Shown: in pieces, positions 834 through 59,018 of the stretch
How the letters are laid out: each line of letters begins with the position of its first letter
Numbering within the stretch: the first letter of the stretch is position 1
NCBI GenBank assembly: GCA_028344155.1
Contig: JAOMAI010000001.1
Coordinates: 1 to 64,000, forward strand
Reading direction: 5' to 3'
DNA: 64,000 bases
Source of the DNA: Candidatus Nitrosopelagicus sp.
GTDB taxonomy: Archaea > Thermoproteota > Nitrososphaeria > Nitrososphaerales > Nitrosopumilaceae
Program-made: the position numbers and the translations under genes
Notes under the pieces: model-generated
The model's input: only the letters and a program-made list of their open reading frames with translations
Database searches by the model: none
Told to the model about the DNA's origin: nothing

Positions 834-2762
834 TTTTATAGCTTCTTGAACTTGTGGATAATGAGTTGTAACTCTATACATTCTATTAATTGCTGATGAA
901 AGATTTTGAGATTTTCTTCTTTCTCCATGATTAACAAGAACTCTACGAAGTTTTGGTCTCAATCTTTGCACATATGACATTAATTGATTATAATCACTAT
1001 GACCACTAAATCCCTCTAATTTTTCAGTACCACAGTTAATTGTAACAACTTCAACTTTTCCCTCTCTTCCCATAATTGTCACTTGTCTTGCACCATCCAT
1101 TACTCTTCGTCCTAGAGTTCCATTGACCTGATAAGAAACAAAAAGAATCTTATTTTTTGGATTTGGTGCAAAATTTCTAAAGTATTCTAAAACGGGACCA
1201 CCCTCAAGCATTCCAGACGTTGCAATTACAATACATGGTGAATCTTCTCTTAATGGTTCATCTCTTCCATCTGCATGCTCAATATTTGTGAAATACTCTG
1301 AATCAAATGGATTATCGTCTGTTTCTAAAATTTTCTGTTTCAATGATCTCTCAAGATATTCAGGATGTGCTTCATGAATTGCGGTTGCTTCTTGAATCAT
1401 TCCTTCCATGAAAACAGGTGATTCTGTTAATTGACCAGATTTCATATACTTGTCAATAACCATCATCAACTCTTGTGCACGCCCTACAGCAGGAATTGGA
1501 ATTAGAACTTTACCACCACCTTTGAGAATTTCATTTACAGATTTGATAAATGCTCCTTCAACTTCTTCTCTTGTTGGTTGAATGTCTTCTTTTGCACCGT
1601 ATGTACTTTCGACTAGTAATGTTTCAACACGTGGGAATCTTGTATCTGCACTTTCTAAAAGCATACTTTTTCCATATTTGATATCACCAGAGTAAACAAA
1701 ATTATGATCACCATTACCAATATGAAAGTGACATGATGCAGAACCTAAGATATGTCCTGCGTTTGCCAATACAAGTTTAATATCAGGAGAAATATCTGTG
1801 ACGGTTCCATACGAGAGACCAATTGTTTGTCTCATAATTTGGTGAACATCTCGTTCTGCATACATCGGTGTTCGTCCTTGTGCACCTGCAACCTTGATTG
1901 CATCTAATTGAATTAGATTCATCATAGGAAGGGTTGGTTCAGTACAGTAAATTGGCCCCTTATACCCATATTTTGTTAATACAGGCAAGAATCCGGTGTG
2001 GTCCAAGTGAGCATGTCCAATTACAATAGCATCTAACTCATCTAATGAAATATTTGCCCAATCTAAACGAGGAAATGCTTCAGAAGGAGTTCGTGCACCG
2101 GGGTTGATACCACAATCAATTAACACTTTACTATCAGGAGTAGTCAAAAGCATGCAGGAACGCCCAACCTGTCCAAATCCTCCCAGTGTTAATAATGATA
2201 CTTCAGATTTTTGAACAAGTCTAGGTCTAAAGATTTCCTCTCCAATAGATTTTAGTTGTTTTGCTCTATCTGCAGATGATATTTTTAATTGATAATTGAT
2301 TGATTTGATTGTGTTAGATGGTTTTGTAGTTGATTTTCTTATTCTTAGTCTCCAACCTGTTTGTTCGGTAACTTCTGTATGATTAAATTCTTCTGCATTT
2401 CTCTGACAGAGCCATGGTCTTTTTACTTCAATTGAAACTTCACCTGTTGCAGTATCAAAAAATGTAGCCTCTAGTCCAGCATCATCTGGAACTAAGGTGT
2501 CTAAAATTTTTCTTGCATCCTCTTCAGACTTCCTAATTTTTTCATCAGTTCTTATTACAATTCGTTTTTTAATTTGATTAACTAGGGTAGAAATTATGTC
2601 GTTATGTTCCATCAAAAAGCGTGGCGTATCTGTATAAAGAGCAATACGAGGACCCTCATAATCAATTTTTGTGACATTTGCTTCTTTGGGTATACTTGTC
2701 AGTATGGTCGCCATTATATTCTGGCTAGATTGATCTGCTTGCTGCTGTTGTTTTTTTTGCAA
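825..2762 (-). CDS. fttA: KH-domain beta-CASP ribonuclease aCPSF1 (FttA), archaeal transcription termination factor
   Basis: 645 aa; N-terminal KH region then metallo-beta-lactamase HAHLDHTG and beta-CASP motifs (SGMLEGGPVLEYF, VNHGE). Confidence 0.93.
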   Translation of the reverse strand: MQKKQQQQADQSSQNIMATILTSIPKEANVTKIDYEGPRIALYTDTPRFLMEHNDIISTLVNQIKKRIVIRTDEKIRKSEEDARKILDTLVPDDAGLEATFFDTATGEVSIEVKRPWLCQRNAEEFNHTEVTEQTGWRLRIRKSTTKPSNTIKSINYQLKISSADRAKQLKSIGEEIFRPRLVQKSEVSLLTLGGFGQVGRSCMLLTTPDSKVLIDCGINPGARTPSEAFPRLDWANISLDELDAIVIGHAHLDHTGFLPVLTKYGYKGPIYCTEPTLPMMNLIQLDAIKVAGAQGRTPMYAERDVHQIMRQTIGLSYGTVTDISPDIKLVLANAGHILGSASCHFHIGNGDHNFVYSGDIKYGKSMLLESADTRFPRVETLLVESTYGAKEDIQPTREEVEGAFIKSVNEILKGGGKVLIPIPAVGRAQELMMVIDKYMKSGQLTESPVFMEGMIQEATAIHEAHPEYLERSLKQKILETDDNPFDSEYFTNIEHADGRDEPLREDSPCIVIATSGMLEGGPVLEYFRNFAPNPKNKILFVSYQVNGTLGRRVMDGARQVTIMGREGKVEVVTINCGTEKLEGFSGHSDYNQLMSYVQRLRPKLRRVLVNHGERRKSQNLSSAINRMYRVTTHYPQVQEAIKLF

Positions 2763-2767
2763 TTATT

Positions 2768-3430
2768 TTAAAGAGGAAGTACTGCTTTCTTTTGTTCTTC
2801 TGTTAAAAGACGGAATCCATTTTTATCAACCAATGCTACATTGATTCCATCGCCAGTTCCAATATTTCGTGTTATGGCTGCTTTGACTGCACGTAATGCA
2901 ACATTTTTTGCATCTTCAAGTGTCAAGTCTTTGGTATATTCTTCTTCTAACAGACCATATGCAACTGGAGAACCACTACCAGTTGTTACATAATTTTTAT
3001 TTTCTACAGAGCCAAACATGTCGATATTAAATAAAGCAGGACCTTTTGCATCAACACCACCTACTAAGATGTCTGCAATGAATGGATAACCTCTGTTTTG
3101 ATGGAACATTAAAGATGTTAGTCTTGCTAATGAGTTAACTGGAATAGGTTCTTGATTTTGAATTCTGTGTAAATTTGCATGATAACGTAATACATCTACA
3201 ATGTTTTGTGCATCTGCTACACCACCTGCTAAAGTAAGACCAACATGTTGTTCGATTTTTTGAATTTTCATTGTATTGTTATTTGCAATAAAATATCCTG
3301 CGCTTGCTCTCATATCCGCACATAAGACTACACCGTCTGTAGCCTTGATACCTACAGTGGTTGTTCCGTGTAATATTTTTTCTTCAACATTGTTTGACAT
3401 AAGATTAACCTCGTTTTGAGATAATATCAA
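2768..3430 (-). CDS. psmB: Proteasome beta subunit
   Basis: Propeptide followed by HGTTTVGIKATDGVVLCADMRASAG; GSGSPVAYGLLE; likely internal start at MSNNVEEK. Confidence 0.95.
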   Translation of the reverse strand: MILSQNEVNLMSNNVEEKILHGTTTVGIKATDGVVLCADMRASAGYFIANNNTMKIQKIEQHVGLTLAGGVADAQNIVDVLRYHANLHRIQNQEPIPVNSLARLTSLMFHQNRGYPFIADILVGGVDAKGPALFNIDMFGSVENKNYVTTGSGSPVAYGLLEEEYTKDLTLEDAKNVALRAVKAAITRNIGTGDGINVALVDKNGFRLLTEEQKKAVLPL

Positions 3431-3471
3431 TGATATTAGACCCTTTTAAATAACTTTGTCATAGGATCGAA

Positions 3472-4530
3472 GTGTTGAACAAGAAGGCTAAGTCCCACAC
3501 AATGGAGCTTCCAAGACAGATCGTTGTAGGTGAAAAGAACATTGAACAAGTTGGAGAATTTTTACGATCACTTTCTAATCCAAAAAAAGTTTCAATAATT
3601 TCTGGTAAGAATGTAAAGAAAATAATTGGAAAAGAGATCGATAAGTCATTAAAAAATGCAAAAATTTCAGCTGTTTGGCATTTAGCAAAATCAAATCAAG
3701 TAAAAGAAACTGATGCGATACAAAAAAAAGTCAAATTAACAAAAAGTGATATAATCATAGGTTTAGGAGGAGGACGCTCAGTAGATGTTGCAAAATTATG
3801 TTCATTTAATCTAAAAAAACCATTTGTTAGCATACCTACCTCTGCATCACATGATGGTATTGCAAGCCCATTTGTTTCAGTTAGAGGTGAAAAACCACAT
3901 TCACTGGTCGCAACTGCACCTCTAGGTGTGTTTGTGGATTTAGATATAATCAAAAAAGCTCCTAAAAAATTACTGGCAAGTGGATGTGGTGATTTGATGG
4001 CAAAGGTAACTGCAGTTCATGATTGGGAATTAGGTCGTGATAAGGTAGGAGAATATTATGGAAGATATTCAGCAAACCTTGCTTCAATGAGTGCAGAGAT
4101 ATTAATTGAAAGTGCAGAAAATTTTTCAAAAAATAAAATTGATGTTAGAATAATTGTTGAGGCATTAATCAGTGCAGGAGTTGCATCGTGTATTGCAGGA
4201 AGTAGTAGACCTTGTTCAGGTGCAGAACATCTATTTTCACATGCAATTGATCATTTAGAATTTGGAATTGGATTACATGGTGAAAAATGTGGCATAGGTT
4301 CTATAATGATTGCAAAATTACAAGGACAAAACTGGAAAAAAATTATAAAAACTTTGAAGAACTCGGGTGCGCCAACTACAGCAAAAGAGATTGGATTAAA
4401 ACCAAAGATTTTAGCTAAAGCATTAGTTATTGCACAATCATTACGACCTGAGAGATATACAATATTAAAAGAAGTTAAAATGACTGAAAAAGACGCATTA
4501 AAGCTTGCAAAAAGTACAGGCGTTCTATAA
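3472..4530 (+). CDS. egsA: sn-glycerol-1-phosphate dehydrogenase
   Basis: GLGGGRSVDVAKL, SIPTSASHDGIASPF, SRPCSGAEHLFSHAID typical of archaeal G1PDH. Confidence 0.93.
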   Translation: MLNKKAKSHTMELPRQIVVGEKNIEQVGEFLRSLSNPKKVSIISGKNVKKIIGKEIDKSLKNAKISAVWHLAKSNQVKETDAIQKKVKLTKSDIIIGLGGGRSVDVAKLCSFNLKKPFVSIPTSASHDGIASPFVSVRGEKPHSLVATAPLGVFVDLDIIKKAPKKLLASGCGDLMAKVTAVHDWELGRDKVGEYYGRYSANLASMSAEILIESAENFSKNKIDVRIIVEALISAGVASCIAGSSRPCSGAEHLFSHAIDHLEFGIGLHGEKCGIGSIMIAKLQGQNWKKIIKTLKNSGAPTTAKEIGLKPKILAKALVIAQSLRPERYTILKEVKMTEKDALKLAKSTGVL

Positions 4531-53275: not shown

Positions 53276-53509
53276 TTATTCAGATTTAGTATCTTTTTCT
53301 CTATTCATATGTCCTAAGAGCGCTTTGATTTCCTTACCCATATTGTTAGGATCTTTTCCTAAATCCAATTTTTCAGTTATACTATCTTTTACTTGCAAAT
53401 TTTCTAATTCAATTCGTCTTTTTTCTACACAGTGTAGATGATCACTGTCTGTTGCACAAATTTTCTTACAGATAGAACATGTACCCATACACTCACTTTG
53501 TCTCACCAC
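53276..53509 (-). CDS. Small Cys-rich protein, unknown function
   Basis: MGTCSICKKICATDSDHLHCVEKRRIELENL. Confidence 0.6.
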   Translation of the reverse strand: MVRQSECMGTCSICKKICATDSDHLHCVEKRRIELENLQVKDSITEKLDLGKDPNNMGKEIKALLGHMNREKDTKSE

Positions 53510-53582: not shown

Positions 53583-55787
53583 TTAAATTTGTTTTTCAGA
53601 AATACCAGTACAGAATAAACTAATATGATCGGATCCTCTAGAGTGATTTTTGTAATATTTTGCCTTATCAGAACTATCTGCTTTTATTGAAATTATGTTT
53701 TCACCTGGAATTAATACCAAATTTTCTAATTCAATATTTGTAATGGAAACAGAATTAATATCATATGCGTTTAATCTTTCATCATTAAAAAAAATATCAA
53801 CATTACGATTTTGCTCATGGCTTACTAATTCTAACATAATTGAAATTTCATCTTTACTGTCATTTGGATTAATTATTTTTATTTCTGATTCAGAAAACAT
53901 TGGACGAGCATTTATCTTTGGATCAAACCAACTCCATCCCTCACCAAGAAGAATAAATGGTTCCAAGTTAGAAGATTCTGGAATTTTCCATGCACGAACT
54001 TTAGAATCATCAAAATACAATTCATCACTATTCAAAATTTTTGACATGATATTTGATTTATTGTTTATAGCGTCTTCACCAATTGATACACGTTTTGTAG
54101 AAGAATCTGTCAGAGTAATTGGAGAATCCTTATGCAAAATGGCATATTTTATGTCATAATAATTTAAAATAGGAATTCCATATTTTGATAAATCTTGTTT
54201 TACGATATCAACATCGTTTTCAAATCTTTGGAAATTTTTCAAGAAATAAGTATCTGTTTGCGCTAATTCATCTAATGTTGGTCTTGATTCATGCCCACCA
54301 ATAATTGGTTTTTCATGAAATGTTTGATAATATCCAATAATAGGAACTGAACTTTGTGAACCAGTTTGATCTGAACCTATTGGCATTTCTAAAATTACAA
54401 ATTCTGATTTATCATTTTTAATTTCATCATATATTTCTGGAATTTCTTCTGTAAAAGATGGAAACGGACTTGCTGATACGTCAAAAAGCAACACTGAAAA
54501 AATTCCAATTAATATTAATATCAAAACTTTTTTTGAGAACATTTTACTTTTCATTATGCCATTTATTGTGAATGCTGAAAGAATTGCTAGAGAAAGATGT
54601 GTCATTATAATAAATCTCCCACTTGATCTCATTTCATCCCATCCAGGGACAAAATCAAACAAAAATCGTTCTGGCATCCAAATTCCTGTGAGATTACTAA
54701 AAATTCTTAATTCTGGTCCAAGACTTAGTATGGCAAAACCAGTTCCAACAAAAATCCAAAACCAAGTAAATCTAAATCTAAATTTTAGAGCAATAATTGA
54801 AAGAAAGATTGCAGGAAAACCCAGATATGAGTAACTTTCAATTGATTCTGGCACTGTTTCTGCTTCATTATCGATCAGTGATTCATGCATCCATATCCAG
54901 AATCCATAATCCGTTTGAATTTGACTAGTATGATGTACAGTTGGAGTAACTAGAGCTCCTAAACTAGTTGAATACATCAAATGTTCCCTTATTGATACCT
55001 CTTCCCACTGTGATATTGAATCAAATCCCGGTGTCAGTACAACAAGAGATGCACTTGCACCTATGCCTAGAATTAAAAAGAAATTAAGCATGAATGTTTT
55101 ATTCGGCACATTTTTTTGTTTGAATATGTATATCGAAAAAAATACAATTGAAAATATTATTAAAATTACAAAAAAGTATAGGTGAGTTATAGCTCCTAAA
55201 AATAAAAACATACTACCTAAAACAATCAACACTTTAGATTTTTCCTCAAGAATTTTAAATAAAACTAGAATGAATAATGGCAACCATACTATTATTCCAA
55301 GACCAATATGAAATTGAGAATGAACTAAGTGATATGAACTAAATGTAAAAATCACACCAGCAATAATTGAAGCATAAAAATTTTTAGTGAAATGATTTGC
55401 TAATAAAAAAGAACCATACCCACCTGATACAAATCCTGAAATCCAAATTATATTCCATGCTAATGTACTTCCCAATGTACTTTGTAAAATTGCGCCAATT
55501 CCTGTAGTAAATAATGCTAAATTTCCTCCAATGGAAACACCATTAGGTTGAAAAATGTATTGACTATAATAGAAATCTAAATTATTTTCAAAACTAAATC
55601 CTGCCCACCACATTCTCCACATCATATGACATTTATCCCAACATCCTTGTCCCGCAGCTTCAGAAGTGAAATCTAAAATTACTGGAAAAGTTAGAATAAT
55701 TGTTAAAACCAAAAATATGCCAAGAACAATTCCATGCTTGGAAATATTTCTTGTAAAATTATAATTCTCAATTATCGTATTATTCAT
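53583..55787 (-). CDS. Large multi-TM membrane protein (GT-C/YfhO-like)
   Basis: 734 aa, about 11 TM helices plus a C-terminal extracytoplasmic beta-rich domain. Confidence 0.65.
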   Translation of the reverse strand: MNNTIIENYNFTRNISKHGIVLGIFLVLTIILTFPVILDFTSEAAGQGCWDKCHMMWRMWWAGFSFENNLDFYYSQYIFQPNGVSIGGNLALFTTGIGAILQSTLGSTLAWNIIWISGFVSGGYGSFLLANHFTKNFYASIIAGVIFTFSSYHLVHSQFHIGLGIIVWLPLFILVLFKILEEKSKVLIVLGSMFLFLGAITHLYFFVILIIFSIVFFSIYIFKQKNVPNKTFMLNFFLILGIGASASLVVLTPGFDSISQWEEVSIREHLMYSTSLGALVTPTVHHTSQIQTDYGFWIWMHESLIDNEAETVPESIESYSYLGFPAIFLSIIALKFRFRFTWFWIFVGTGFAILSLGPELRIFSNLTGIWMPERFLFDFVPGWDEMRSSGRFIIMTHLSLAILSAFTINGIMKSKMFSKKVLILILIGIFSVLLFDVSASPFPSFTEEIPEIYDEIKNDKSEFVILEMPIGSDQTGSQSSVPIIGYYQTFHEKPIIGGHESRPTLDELAQTDTYFLKNFQRFENDVDIVKQDLSKYGIPILNYYDIKYAILHKDSPITLTDSSTKRVSIGEDAINNKSNIMSKILNSDELYFDDSKVRAWKIPESSNLEPFILLGEGWSWFDPKINARPMFSESEIKIINPNDSKDEISIMLELVSHEQNRNVDIFFNDERLNAYDINSVSITNIELENLVLIPGENIISIKADSSDKAKYYKNHSRGSDHISLFCTGISEKQI

Positions 55788-55799
55788 ATCACTTTTTCA

Positions 55800-57167
55800 T
55801 CAACCAATTGAATTAATCCTTTGGCTTTTCCAAATATACCAACACGCAATACTGCGGTTTGGTTTCCATCTAGCCGAATATTTTTCCATAGTTTTTGGAT
55901 TAGGCAGTTCTTTTAATGAAAACAAATTTCTAATCCCTTTTTGTATTCCTAAATCTCCTACTGGGAAAACATCTTTTCTTTCCAAACAAAACATTAGATA
56001 GATTTGTGCCGTCCAATTTCCAATTCCTTTGATTTTTGTTAACTCTTCAATTACTTGTTCATCTTTTAATTTTGAAATTTTCCCAAAATTAATTTCTTTT
56101 TGAATAATTCGTTTTGATAATCCTTTAATGTAATTGATTTTTGTGCCTGAAATTCCTGTATCTTTTAATTTTTTTTCACTTGTATTGATAACTTGTTCTG
56201 GAGTCGGAAATTTTTTGTAAAGTTTTAGAAATCTCTTTGTAATTGCTGTGGCAGATGCTTCTGATAATTGTTGATAGATTATTGCCTCCACGAGTGTTTG
56301 GTATGGATTTTTTGTAATTCTCATTGTACATGGACCAATTTTTCTTATCAATGGTTCAAGTTTTTTATCTAAATACAAAGATGAAACCTCTTTTTCATAT
56401 TTACCTGCAGTTTGTAATTTTAATCCAATAGTAATATTTTCAAAGTTTTTTGCTGTTGGATTTTTTTTATATTCTCTAGTTAGATTAATTATCTTTAATT
56501 TTATTGGTAATTTTATTTTTTTTTGAATAATTTTTGCCAATCCCGTTCCAATCAAAATTGCTTGTGTTGCACCTGTCACGTTTGATGGTTTTCTGTTAGT
56601 ACTTGAACTCTCAAAATCAATAATTGTATTTTTATTTTTTCCAACAATCACATGTTTGTCAATTGTACTTAGTTCTCCATGATCTAATCCTATACTATCT
56701 AAAAGATAGCATTCTCTCAAAACATTATTCAGTACTAAACGAATTTCTTCTGACTTTGTTTCAGGTTTTTTCGCCCAATCAATAATTTTCTCACCTTCAA
56801 TGTACTCCATTATCAAAAAATTTTTTGAATTTTTGATAAACTTTGGACCTACATCAATCTTATTTACGATTTTGAGTAATTTAGCTTCATTTGTCATATT
56901 TTTCCGTGGAGAATCGATTCTTCGAATTTTTAACGCTACAACATTCTTGTCTTTTTTTGCAAGCACAACCATCCCCACATATCCTTTTCCAAGAATTTGG
57001 CATTTTTCAATCTGTAACGGTCCAGTGAATGAAACATGAGTAATTCCTAATTTTTTTAATTCTGCTAATCGTTTTTTAATCTCAGCTTGTTTTCCCTCTG
57101 GGAATGCTAGAATTTTTTTGTAAGGTTCTTTATTGAAAACGCTAATTGGTTGAAAATGCTGTGTCAT
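55800..57167 (-). CDS. Fusion protein: N-terminal atypical protein-kinase-like domain and C-terminal HhH-GPD (AlkA-like) DNA glycosylase
   Basis: Kinase-like: LGKGYVGMVVLA, VVALKIRR, LIMEYIEGE, LDHGELSTIDKHVIV, NTIIDFES; glycosylase: YQTLVEAIIYQQLS, LTKIKGIGNWTAQIYLMFCL, DVFPVGDLGIQKGIR. Confidence 0.85.
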   Translation of the reverse strand: MTQHFQPISVFNKEPYKKILAFPEGKQAEIKKRLAELKKLGITHVSFTGPLQIEKCQILGKGYVGMVVLAKKDKNVVALKIRRIDSPRKNMTNEAKLLKIVNKIDVGPKFIKNSKNFLIMEYIEGEKIIDWAKKPETKSEEIRLVLNNVLRECYLLDSIGLDHGELSTIDKHVIVGKNKNTIIDFESSSTNRKPSNVTGATQAILIGTGLAKIIQKKIKLPIKLKIINLTREYKKNPTAKNFENITIGLKLQTAGKYEKEVSSLYLDKKLEPLIRKIGPCTMRITKNPYQTLVEAIIYQQLSEASATAITKRFLKLYKKFPTPEQVINTSEKKLKDTGISGTKINYIKGLSKRIIQKEINFGKISKLKDEQVIEELTKIKGIGNWTAQIYLMFCLERKDVFPVGDLGIQKGIRNLFSLKELPNPKTMEKYSARWKPNRSIACWYIWKSQRINSIG

Positions 57168-58482
57168 CAGTAGTTATCAGTTTTGAAATGCTCTTTTTAA
57201 CAGATTTGCTTTGTTTATCTTTTCCACTCGTTATCTTAAATCCTTTTTTGAAATCATTTCTTAATCCCTTTGGAATTCCTGATTGCCCAATATGATTTTT
57301 AATTAAATCATTAAGGTATGTTTTGGCATTTTCGTATCTTCGGGTTTGTAATGATTGCAATTTCCCTTCCTTATCTGTCCACATTAATTTTGATTTTTTA
57401 GAATTAATATTGATAAATTTAGTTGCAAACTCACCAGAAAACACATCTGGTCCTGTTCTTATTTCATTTTTTGATATGGTTAGTGATTCTAGTAAGAACA
57501 ATAAACTAGCATTGGTTTCATCATATGCTATTGCATCATTTCTAAGAACATTAAATCCTTCATTGATCATTTGGGATTCAATTGAGCTGGATGCACGCTT
57601 AATTTGCCCGTAAACAATGTCATCGCTCCTTTTTTTGTATGTAAAATTCACAATTAGTAAATTTTTTGCAATTTCAGTAGGAATCTTAATTCTTGATTTT
57701 TCTTTAAAGTATGAAATTGAATTTTTCTTTAAGAAATTTCTAGCAATTAAGATGAAATTTGTAACATTTTGGATTGATATTGCAGCACCAAGATTCCTGT
57801 TTCTGTCTATTGGATCAATTATTACTATTGTAGATTCAAATTTTCTAGGAGATTCTCCAATCATTTCATTGTTTTGTAATCTTGCAATTTTCTTTAAGAC
57901 ATTTTCAAAGCTACCCAAATAGTAAACTAAAACTTCACAAACGTATCCGCTGAATCCTTGCTTTGCAATCTCTGCACCATACATTCCATTAATTTTCAAA
58001 AAACATTTCAAAACTCTAATGTCATCTTTCATTGAACCAGTTAATTTTTCACTCATAAACTCCGTATGGAATGTTGATCTATCAGCTGCGCTTTTCCATT
58101 CTCCTTTTTTAATGTCATAACACGGTACAACATTAACTCCTACTCCATCAATATCTGCTTCAACAAATGGATGTTCTGAATATCTTACATATGGTTTAAA
58201 TTTTTTTAGCGAATCAAATCCAATTTTTTTACCAATTGTTTCAAAATTTTTTTCAGTTGTTGTTTTTTTGAATTTTACAAAAATATCAATATCAATTTTT
58301 TCTGGGGTCCATGTCTCTTTTGCATATGAACCCCCAAAATGCACTGACACAATTGCTTTTTGTTTCTCAGTTTCTTTGTTAACAAGACTAAAAACCTGAT
58401 TTGCAATTTTATCCACTTTTTTTCTTAGTATATTATTTGGAATTGCTATTTGTTTTGATTTTTTTATGATATCACTTTTCAT
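57142..58482 (-). CDS. cca: Archaeal (class I) CCA-adding tRNA nucleotidyltransferase
   Basis: VSVHFGGSYAKETWTPEKIDIDIFVKF; GFSGYVCEVLVYYLGSFENVLK; IVIIDPIDRNRNLGAAIS. Confidence 0.95.
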   Translation of the reverse strand: MKSDIIKKSKQIAIPNNILRKKVDKIANQVFSLVNKETEKQKAIVSVHFGGSYAKETWTPEKIDIDIFVKFKKTTTEKNFETIGKKIGFDSLKKFKPYVRYSEHPFVEADIDGVGVNVVPCYDIKKGEWKSAADRSTFHTEFMSEKLTGSMKDDIRVLKCFLKINGMYGAEIAKQGFSGYVCEVLVYYLGSFENVLKKIARLQNNEMIGESPRKFESTIVIIDPIDRNRNLGAAISIQNVTNFILIARNFLKKNSISYFKEKSRIKIPTEIAKNLLIVNFTYKKRSDDIVYGQIKRASSSIESQMINEGFNVLRNDAIAYDETNASLLFLLESLTISKNEIRTGPDVFSGEFATKFININSKKSKLMWTDKEGKLQSLQTRRYENAKTYLNDLIKNHIGQSGIPKGLRNDFKKGFKITSGKDKQSKSVKKSISKLITTDDTAFSTN

Positions 58483-59018
58483 TTTGCATTAACCTCCAGT
58501 AAATCTGAATATTCTGGTCCCTTTGGACTTAAAACACTTCTTTTTACTTTGATTTTTGACACAGTTTGTGTACCAAATTGAATAGTCTGGTATTCTTTCA
58601 TTATGACTGAAATATCATTAATTTTCTTTTTTACTCTAAAAACTGTCAAGTGAGGTTTGAATTTTTTATCATTTTCAAAACCTAGTGTTGTCAATTTCAT
58701 TCCCACTTCATTTGCCATAGCAGTTAATTTTTCTGTACCATTGTTATCAATTCCAATCCAGATTACGCGTGGATTTTTCAAGTTTGGAAATCCACCTACA
58801 CCTTTTAATGATAAATCAAAAGAAGAAAATGTCATTTTCTTAACAATATCTTTTACTTGTTCACATTTTGTTTCATCAATTTCTCCTAAAAATTTCAAAG
58901 TAAAGTGAATTTGATCAATTTTTGTAGGTTTTGCATTAATCTGAACATTTTTTTGAAATGTTTGAATATTCTTCAAAATTTTCTCATTAGAAATTTCAAC
59001 TGCTACAAAAACTCTCAT
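58479..59018 (-). CDS. thpR: RNA 2',3'-cyclic phosphodiesterase (2H superfamily, ThpR/LigT)
   Basis: RVFVAVEI; two HxT motifs: IHFTLKFLGEI and PHLTVFRVK. Confidence 0.93.
   Translation of the reverse strand: MRVFVAVEISNEKILKNIQTFQKNVQINAKPTKIDQIHFTLKFLGEIDETKCEQVKDIVKKMTFSSFDLSLKGVGGFPNLKNPRVIWIGIDNNGTEKLTAMANEVGMKLTTLGFENDKKFKPHLTVFRVKKKINDISVIMKEYQTIQFGTQTVSKIKVKRSVLSPKGPEYSDLLEVNAK

Follow-up and report, generated by a model that had tools for sequence, protein, structure and literature searches.

A predicted ArkI-type tRNA kinase joined to a Mag/AlkA-type DNA glycosylase domain in Candidatus Nitrosopelagicus

Gene content of the locus

The window analysed in this work, a stretch of 64,000 nucleotides from Candidatus Nitrosopelagicus sp., carries on its minus strand a single uninterrupted open reading frame of 455 codons, which starts with ATG and encodes a protein of 455 aa (codons 57167..55803, stop codon 55802-55800). 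When these coordinates are read on the plus strand, stops are abundant. A previous sequence-only reading had described one uninterrupted 455-aa frame with a series of motifs, leaving its strand unstated; all of these motifs were located in the minus-strand translation, starting at aa 59 (LGKGYVG), 77 (VALKIRR), 120 (MEYIEGE), 162 (DHGELSTIDKH), 182 (IIDFES), 380 (KGIGNWTAQ) and 402 (PVGDLGIQKG). The features of the locus, all on the minus strand, are as follows.

58479..59018, minus: thpR, RNA 2',3'-cyclic phosphodiesterase (TIGR02258, 3.9e-43; 4-nt overlap with cca)
57142..58482, minus: cca, archaeal CCA tRNA nucleotidyltransferase (TIGR03671, 7.9e-104; 26-nt overlap with the fusion ORF)
55803..57167 (stop 55800-55802), minus: arkI::mag fusion ORF, 455 aa (ORF call, relatives, dN/dS)
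56415..57167, minus: ArkI-like tRNA-kinase domain, aa 1-251 (TkArkI 7vnx, E=2.2e-17; Foldseek 7vnx, TMt 0.76)
56964..56993, minus: P-loop LGKGYVGMVV, aa 59-68, K61/G62 matching TkArkI K32/G33 (alignments)
56928..56930, minus: Lys80, matching TkArkI K51 (alignments)
56652..56684, minus: predicted catalytic loop DHGELSTIDKH, aa 162-172, H163/E165/K171 matching TkArkI H130/Q132/K137 (alignments)
56607..56624, minus: predicted metal-binding loop IIDFES, aa 182-187, D184 matching TkArkI D149 (alignments)
56574..56582, minus: N196-T198, N196 and T198 matching TkArkI N160 and T162 (alignments)
56463..56471, minus: Y233-K234-K235 (YKK), matching the ArkI YKR RNA-binding motif (alignments; motif from PMC9095486)
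56373..56414, minus: linker, aa 252-265, fast-evolving and without a conserved start codon (dN/dS, start-codon check)
55803..56372, minus: Mag/AlkA-type HhH-GPD DNA glycosylase domain, aa 266-455 (Pfam PF00730; PDB 4hsb/4b21/2h56/3s6i)
56004..56030, minus: helix-hairpin-helix KGIGNWTAQ, aa 380-388 (motif location in the translation)
55953..55955, minus: predicted catalytic Asp405, PVGD (2h56 alignment; kept in every fused or separate copy shown)

Between the fusion gene and a small conserved ORF (53276-53509) lies a gene for a 734-aa membrane protein with a weak YfhO match (53583-55787, minus strand), which was not found at this place in the same-genus fusion loci examined downstream.

The fused frame in other genomes of the genus

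The single frame was found in 15 of 31 'Ca. Nitrosopelagicus' genomes, that of the window included, with 14 complete copies and one incomplete copy from a single-cell assembly. Beyond the window's genome, 14 same-genus genomes thus share the frame without stops (13 complete, 1 partial), and its length is exactly 455 aa in all 14 complete copies, the window's among them. The genomes bearing the fusion, whose public records name Candidatus Nitrosopelagicus as host genus, include one closed single-contig genome of 1,232,128 bp (L008/L201) as well as single-cell assemblies, which we take the AH- and AG- records to be, going by their names. The sequence-only reading had named as telling against it that orthologues would always be two separate genes. 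This is not so: among the Nitrosopelagicus near the window's genome, the majority carry the fused state.

Purifying selection acts on both halves: pairwise dN/dS values were about 0.03-0.12 for the kinase part and about 0.04-0.12 for the glycosylase part, with the linker (aa 252-265) being the fastest-changing stretch in the more distant pairs. Across the 14 copies, the linker has no conserved start codon from which the glycosylase could be translated on its own, which makes a separate glycosylase product unlikely. An assembly artefact, or a merge of two ORFs by gene prediction, might be suspected because other genera carry the two as separate neighbouring genes; nevertheless, the recurrence of the frame in 15 same-genus genomes from several assemblies, among them a closed contig and single-cell genomes, the constant length of the complete copies, the purifying selection and the linker without a conserved start codon leave this explanation a practically negligible probability, and an assembly merge was rejected since independent assemblies display the fused frame. 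In one other assembly (L194, G013:C9:160000-169232), about 4 kb of other sequence stands in place of thpR, cca and the initial 90 codons of the fusion gene, possibly through a misjoin or a real rearrangement.

The N-terminal half resembles ArkI RNA kinases

ArkI corresponds to COG2112, formerly the AQ578 kinase family. The best PDB sequence match of the N-terminal half was the ArkI of T. kodakarensis (TkArkI; TK2051, PDB 7vnx), with E=6e-17 for the whole protein and 2.2e-17 for the N-terminal half alone (phmmer), and Pfam yielded a weak RIO/Pkinase match. An AlphaFold2 model computed from the window and relative sequences (pLDDT 89, pTM 0.82) was compared by Foldseek, and TkArkI (7vnx, TMt 0.76) ranked first and the RNA kinase Ark1 (8yv5, TMt 0.77) second among kinases, both ahead of RIO2; the fold of this half is thus predicted to be kinase-like, as the sequence-only reading had supposed.

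TkArkI residues were mapped by the phmmer alignment and a multiple alignment, giving K32/G33 as K61/G62, K51 as K80, E65 as E94, R95 as M120, H130 as H163, Q132 as E165, K137 as K171, D149 as D184, N160 as N196, T162 as T198, and Y200/K201/R202 as Y233/K234/K235. The study of TkArkI tested 14 residues by alanine replacement (Ohira et al., PMC9095486). In the protein studied here, 11 of these are identical (K61, G62, K80, E94, H163, K171, D184, N196, T198, Y233, K234), two are conservatively replaced (Q132 by E165, R202 by K235) and one is different (R95 by M120). Replacement of R95 by Ala had only a mild effect on TkArkI, whereas that of Q132 severely reduced its activity (PMC9095486); among the 11 residues needed for activity (K32, G33, K51, E65, H130, Q132, K137, D149, N160, T162, K201), 10 are identical and Q132 corresponds to Glu165. 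The C-terminal YKR motif is present as Y233-K234-K235, its Y and K being invariant in the multiple alignment.

The sequence-only reading had considered that the kinase half may be atypical, its loop reading HGEL. However, TkArkI itself has HGQ and DFE where kinases have HRD and DFG (PMC9095486), so HGE and DFE follow the pattern of the ArkI family at these two sites; in the multiple alignment, the protein studied here displays DHGELS and IDFES, and order-level homologues have HGE or HGQ. Neither an HRD/DFG-type active site nor a loss of catalytic residues was found.

A damage-regulated protein kinase, or a pseudokinase scaffold, controlling base-excision repair would agree with the kinase fold and with weak profile matches to RIO1, Bud32 and Pkinase, and both a lesion-regulated kinase and a pseudokinase scaffold had been put forward previously. 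We consider this very unlikely, given that the ArkI/Ark1 RNA kinases are nearest in sequence and fold, that HGE/DFE are the motifs of that family, that the catalytic residues are intact with 11 of the 14 tested ones identical, that the gene lies in a tRNA-gene context, and that the kinase stands alone where the glycosylase is absent. The protein shares with Bud32 and RIO kinases the kinase superfamily and weak profile matches, but its NCBIfam arch_bud32 score (22.1 bits against a cut-off of 125 bits) is far too low, as are the other NCBIfam kinase matches relative to their cut-offs, and its fold match is worse than with ArkI. Protein-kinase, RIO and Bud32 assignments were rejected, as they rely on weak profile matches only, and a label of 'Ser/Thr protein kinase' or RIO-like for this gene is probably wrong. 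From sequence and model, the N-terminal half is most likely an ArkI-family (COG2112) RNA kinase rather than a protein kinase or a pseudokinase. The option of a nucleic-acid phosphotransferase, also raised previously, gains support from this likeness, ArkI being an archaeal tRNA 2'-O-kinase that makes 2'-phosphouridine-47 (Up47) (PMC9095486).

Compared with the ArkI proteins of T. kodakarensis, S. tokodaii (STK_09530) and N. viennensis, the N-terminal half has in common the kinase fold, the HGx/DFE pattern, the 11 of 14 mutated residues, a YKR-type motif (YKK here), an operon with tRNA nucleotidyltransferase and U47 in tRNAs; it differs in the attached DNA glycosylase, in Glu165 for Q132 and Met120 for R95, in a modest sequence identity to TkArkI, in a mesophilic marine host, and in that the KptA eraser was not found in Nitrosopumilaceae. 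A second, diverged ArkI-like stretch with 37% identity to aa 15-189 was observed at G031:C1:609910-610428, in a genome that we take to be Cenarchaeum-like.

The C-terminal half resembles Mag-type glycosylases

Pfam HhH-GPD (PF00730) matched aa 293-435 with E=1.8e-19, and the PDB matches of the C-terminal half were Mag2, 2h56 and Mag1, with E-values of about 2e-31 to 5e-33 (Mag2, 5e-33). The Foldseek matches (Mag2 4hsb, TMt 0.85; 3s6i, 0.81) point to a short AlkA fold, and the helix-hairpin-helix KGIGNWTAQ (380-388) and Asp405 are conserved. By sequence and model, this half is a predicted Mag/AlkA-type glycosylase with Asp405 as catalytic residue. As in Mag1 and Mag2 of S. pombe, B. halodurans 2h56 and D. 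radiodurans AlkA2 (2yg8), the fold, the helix-hairpin-helix and the catalytic Asp are present, in a short AlkA-type protein without the TBP-like N-terminal domain; unlike in these, an RNA-kinase domain occupies the N-terminus. Mag2, the nearest glycosylase structure, has been described as an abasic-site-binding homolog, so that sequence alone is no proof of glycosylase activity. The closed Nitrosopelagicus genome contains two more HhH-GPD frames (252 and 282 aa), therefore the Mag-type domain is not its only HhH-GPD, and relatives without the Mag-type domain retain two such frames.

Pfam, PDB and Foldseek thus agree with the previous proposal of a kinase-like N-terminal half and an AlkA-type HhH-GPD C-terminal half in one protein. 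That proposal had also held that no standard DNA-repair enzyme is known to have this architecture; in keeping with it, our literature searches in open-licence papers returned no description of a kinase-glycosylase fusion.

Association with tRNA maturation genes

With few exceptions, Nitrosopumilaceae loci with sufficient flanking sequence have the arrangement thpR-cca-arkI, which also holds in the other examined families of the order, and the fusion gene is the last member of this cluster. In one fused genome (L200, G028), about 2.6 kb are inserted between thpR and cca (1346-3964). Nitrososphaera viennensis presumably belongs to the same class as the window's host. In this mesophile Up47 has been detected and ArkI shown to be active, and in Sulfurisphaera tokodaii arkI forms an operon with tRNA nucleotidyltransferase (PMC9095486).

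U47 was present in 16 of the 20 cleanly parsed 5-nt tRNA variable loops of the closed Nitrosopelagicus genome (G025), which is compatible with an ArkI substrate although not discriminating. An ArkI-family writer occurs nearly everywhere in Nitrosopumilaceae, and KptA/Tpt1 (PF01885), the enzyme known to erase tRNA 2'-phosphate, including Up47, was found in none of 151 Nitrosopumilaceae genomes, with the positive controls recovered. If Up47 is made here, the known enzyme (KptA) does not erase it, and the eraser half of the reversible ArkI/KptA system of Thermococcus is not reproduced. With regard to neighbouring modifications, PF02390, used for the m7G46 writer TrmB, matched mostly by short N-terminal profile stretches, as any SAM methyltransferase might, and DTW/TapT, the acp3U47 writer, was absent in the 8 genomes checked.

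A phosphotransferase directed to DNA, in which the kinase half would phosphorylate what the glycosylase leaves behind, an abasic site or a nicked end, would suit two domains that are both basic (pI 9.8-9.9) and nucleic-acid-binding by family. Conversely, the kinase predates the association and, in families that lack the glycosylase, adjoins tRNA genes, and DNA-kinase relatives are absent among the matches, making this reading highly improbable.

Gene neighbours, fusions and losses

Among the loci examined, a Mag-type gene after arkI was found in Nitrosopumilaceae only, and arkI stands alone in most of these loci. In a Nitrosopumilaceae sample of 63 separate glycosylase matches, 50 lie less than 2 kb from arkI, 26 of these less than 100 bp; the other 13 comprise 8 on another contig, 1 distant on the same contig and 4 without a listed kinase position. 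The Mag-type glycosylase had no match in 76 of 151 sampled Nitrosopumilaceae genomes, and the kinase was kept. Separate arkI-mag neighbours in other Nitrosopumilaceae are orthologous to the two halves and share their order and strand; as a rule either no gene or a single one lies between them, and often they touch. They differ from the fusion in that each of the two ORFs has a stop and a start codon of its own, and in that some genera have an intervening gene. Separate neighbouring genes are likely to be the ancestral state in Nitrosopumilaceae.

Several loci show particular arrangements. A CDF (cation-diffusion-facilitator)-type gene, named from its sequence, lies between arkI and the glycosylase gene at L051:5989-7347 (minus strand), and similar gaps of 1,356 bp separate the two at L048 and L068. 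At L193:2374-3128, in G125 (a single 1.83-Mb contig), arkI is seemingly frameshifted near codon 56, with an intact adjoining glycosylase, which may reflect a pseudogene or a sequencing error.

In the kinase tree, all fusions from Nitrosopelagicus fall within a single clade, and three glycosylase-free genomes represent secondary losses, as they are nested in this clade. A second fusion, of 477 aa and with a different linker, was identified in G076, which groups in both gene trees with Cenarchaeum-like relatives and not with Nitrosopelagicus; we take this genome to be Cenarchaeum-like itself. Well-supported branches force at least 2 changes of the fused state, and the fusion arose at least twice, in Nitrosopelagicus and, as a separate event, in a Cenarchaeum-like genome. 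Among the matches listed for 301 genomes of the phylum, no third fusion was present. No relatives were found on viral contigs, indicating that the gene is not phage-borne as far as searched.

Discussion

The reading that we favour, with a probability of roughly two in three, is that two working enzymes have been tethered by the fusion of neighbouring operon genes, without obligatory cross-talk between them. The third gene of the thpR-cca-arkI cluster would have become joined, in frame, to the glycosylase gene behind it through loss of the arkI stop codon and spacer, in a small genome where the two genes, co-directional, already touching and co-transcribed, could become one chain. From homology and context, we infer that the N-terminal half transfers phosphate from ATP to the 2'-OH of U47, a variable-loop position of class I tRNAs, thereby stabilising the tRNA core, and the C-terminal half may act as a monofunctional Mag/AlkA-type enzyme that flips alkylated or deaminated purines from DNA and removes them by means of Asp405. 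The short linker would tether independently working enzymes made at a fixed 1:1 ratio. The secondary losses of the glycosylase, and its absence from roughly one half of the family genomes sampled, show that the kinase can do without it.

Nonetheless, two independent fusions and a retained linkage could reflect a functional link. In such a case, the glycosylase domain would work with ArkI on tRNA, recognising or removing alkylated purines in damaged tRNA (for instance 7-methylguanine at the neighbouring position 46), and the fusion would be a tRNA quality-control enzyme. The glycosylase gene joins a tRNA-maturation cluster, is kept beside arkI in many genera and has been fused twice independently; moreover, m7G46 blocks ArkI in E. 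coli tRNAs (PMC9095486), and ring-alkylated purines are substrates of AlkA-type enzymes (PMC9266487). Against this stand the kinase kept without the glycosylase in three Nitrosopelagicus genomes and in around half the family genomes sampled, the literature searched, in which no RNA substrate of Mag-type enzymes was found, and the destructive nature of base removal from tRNA, and we regard this coupling on RNA as unlikely. Its more specific version, a bifunctional enzyme of tRNA maturation and damage surveillance whose Mag-type domain recognises or excises alkylated tRNA purines such as G46, beside U47, is a somewhat longer shot; if true, ArkI would phosphorylate only undamaged tRNA, or damaged tRNA would be marked for decay, and an RNA base-excision activity would be linked to an RNA kinase.

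Under the favoured reading of two tethered enzymes, the findings predict Up47 in abundant mesophilic marine ammonia oxidizers of the open ocean that lack a detected eraser, an internal tRNA phosphorylation so far described mainly as a heat-tolerance device. Further, the recurrent and selected fusion of a predicted RNA-modifying kinase with a predicted DNA base-excision enzyme constitutes a test case for the coupling of alkylation repair and tRNA maintenance in archaea.
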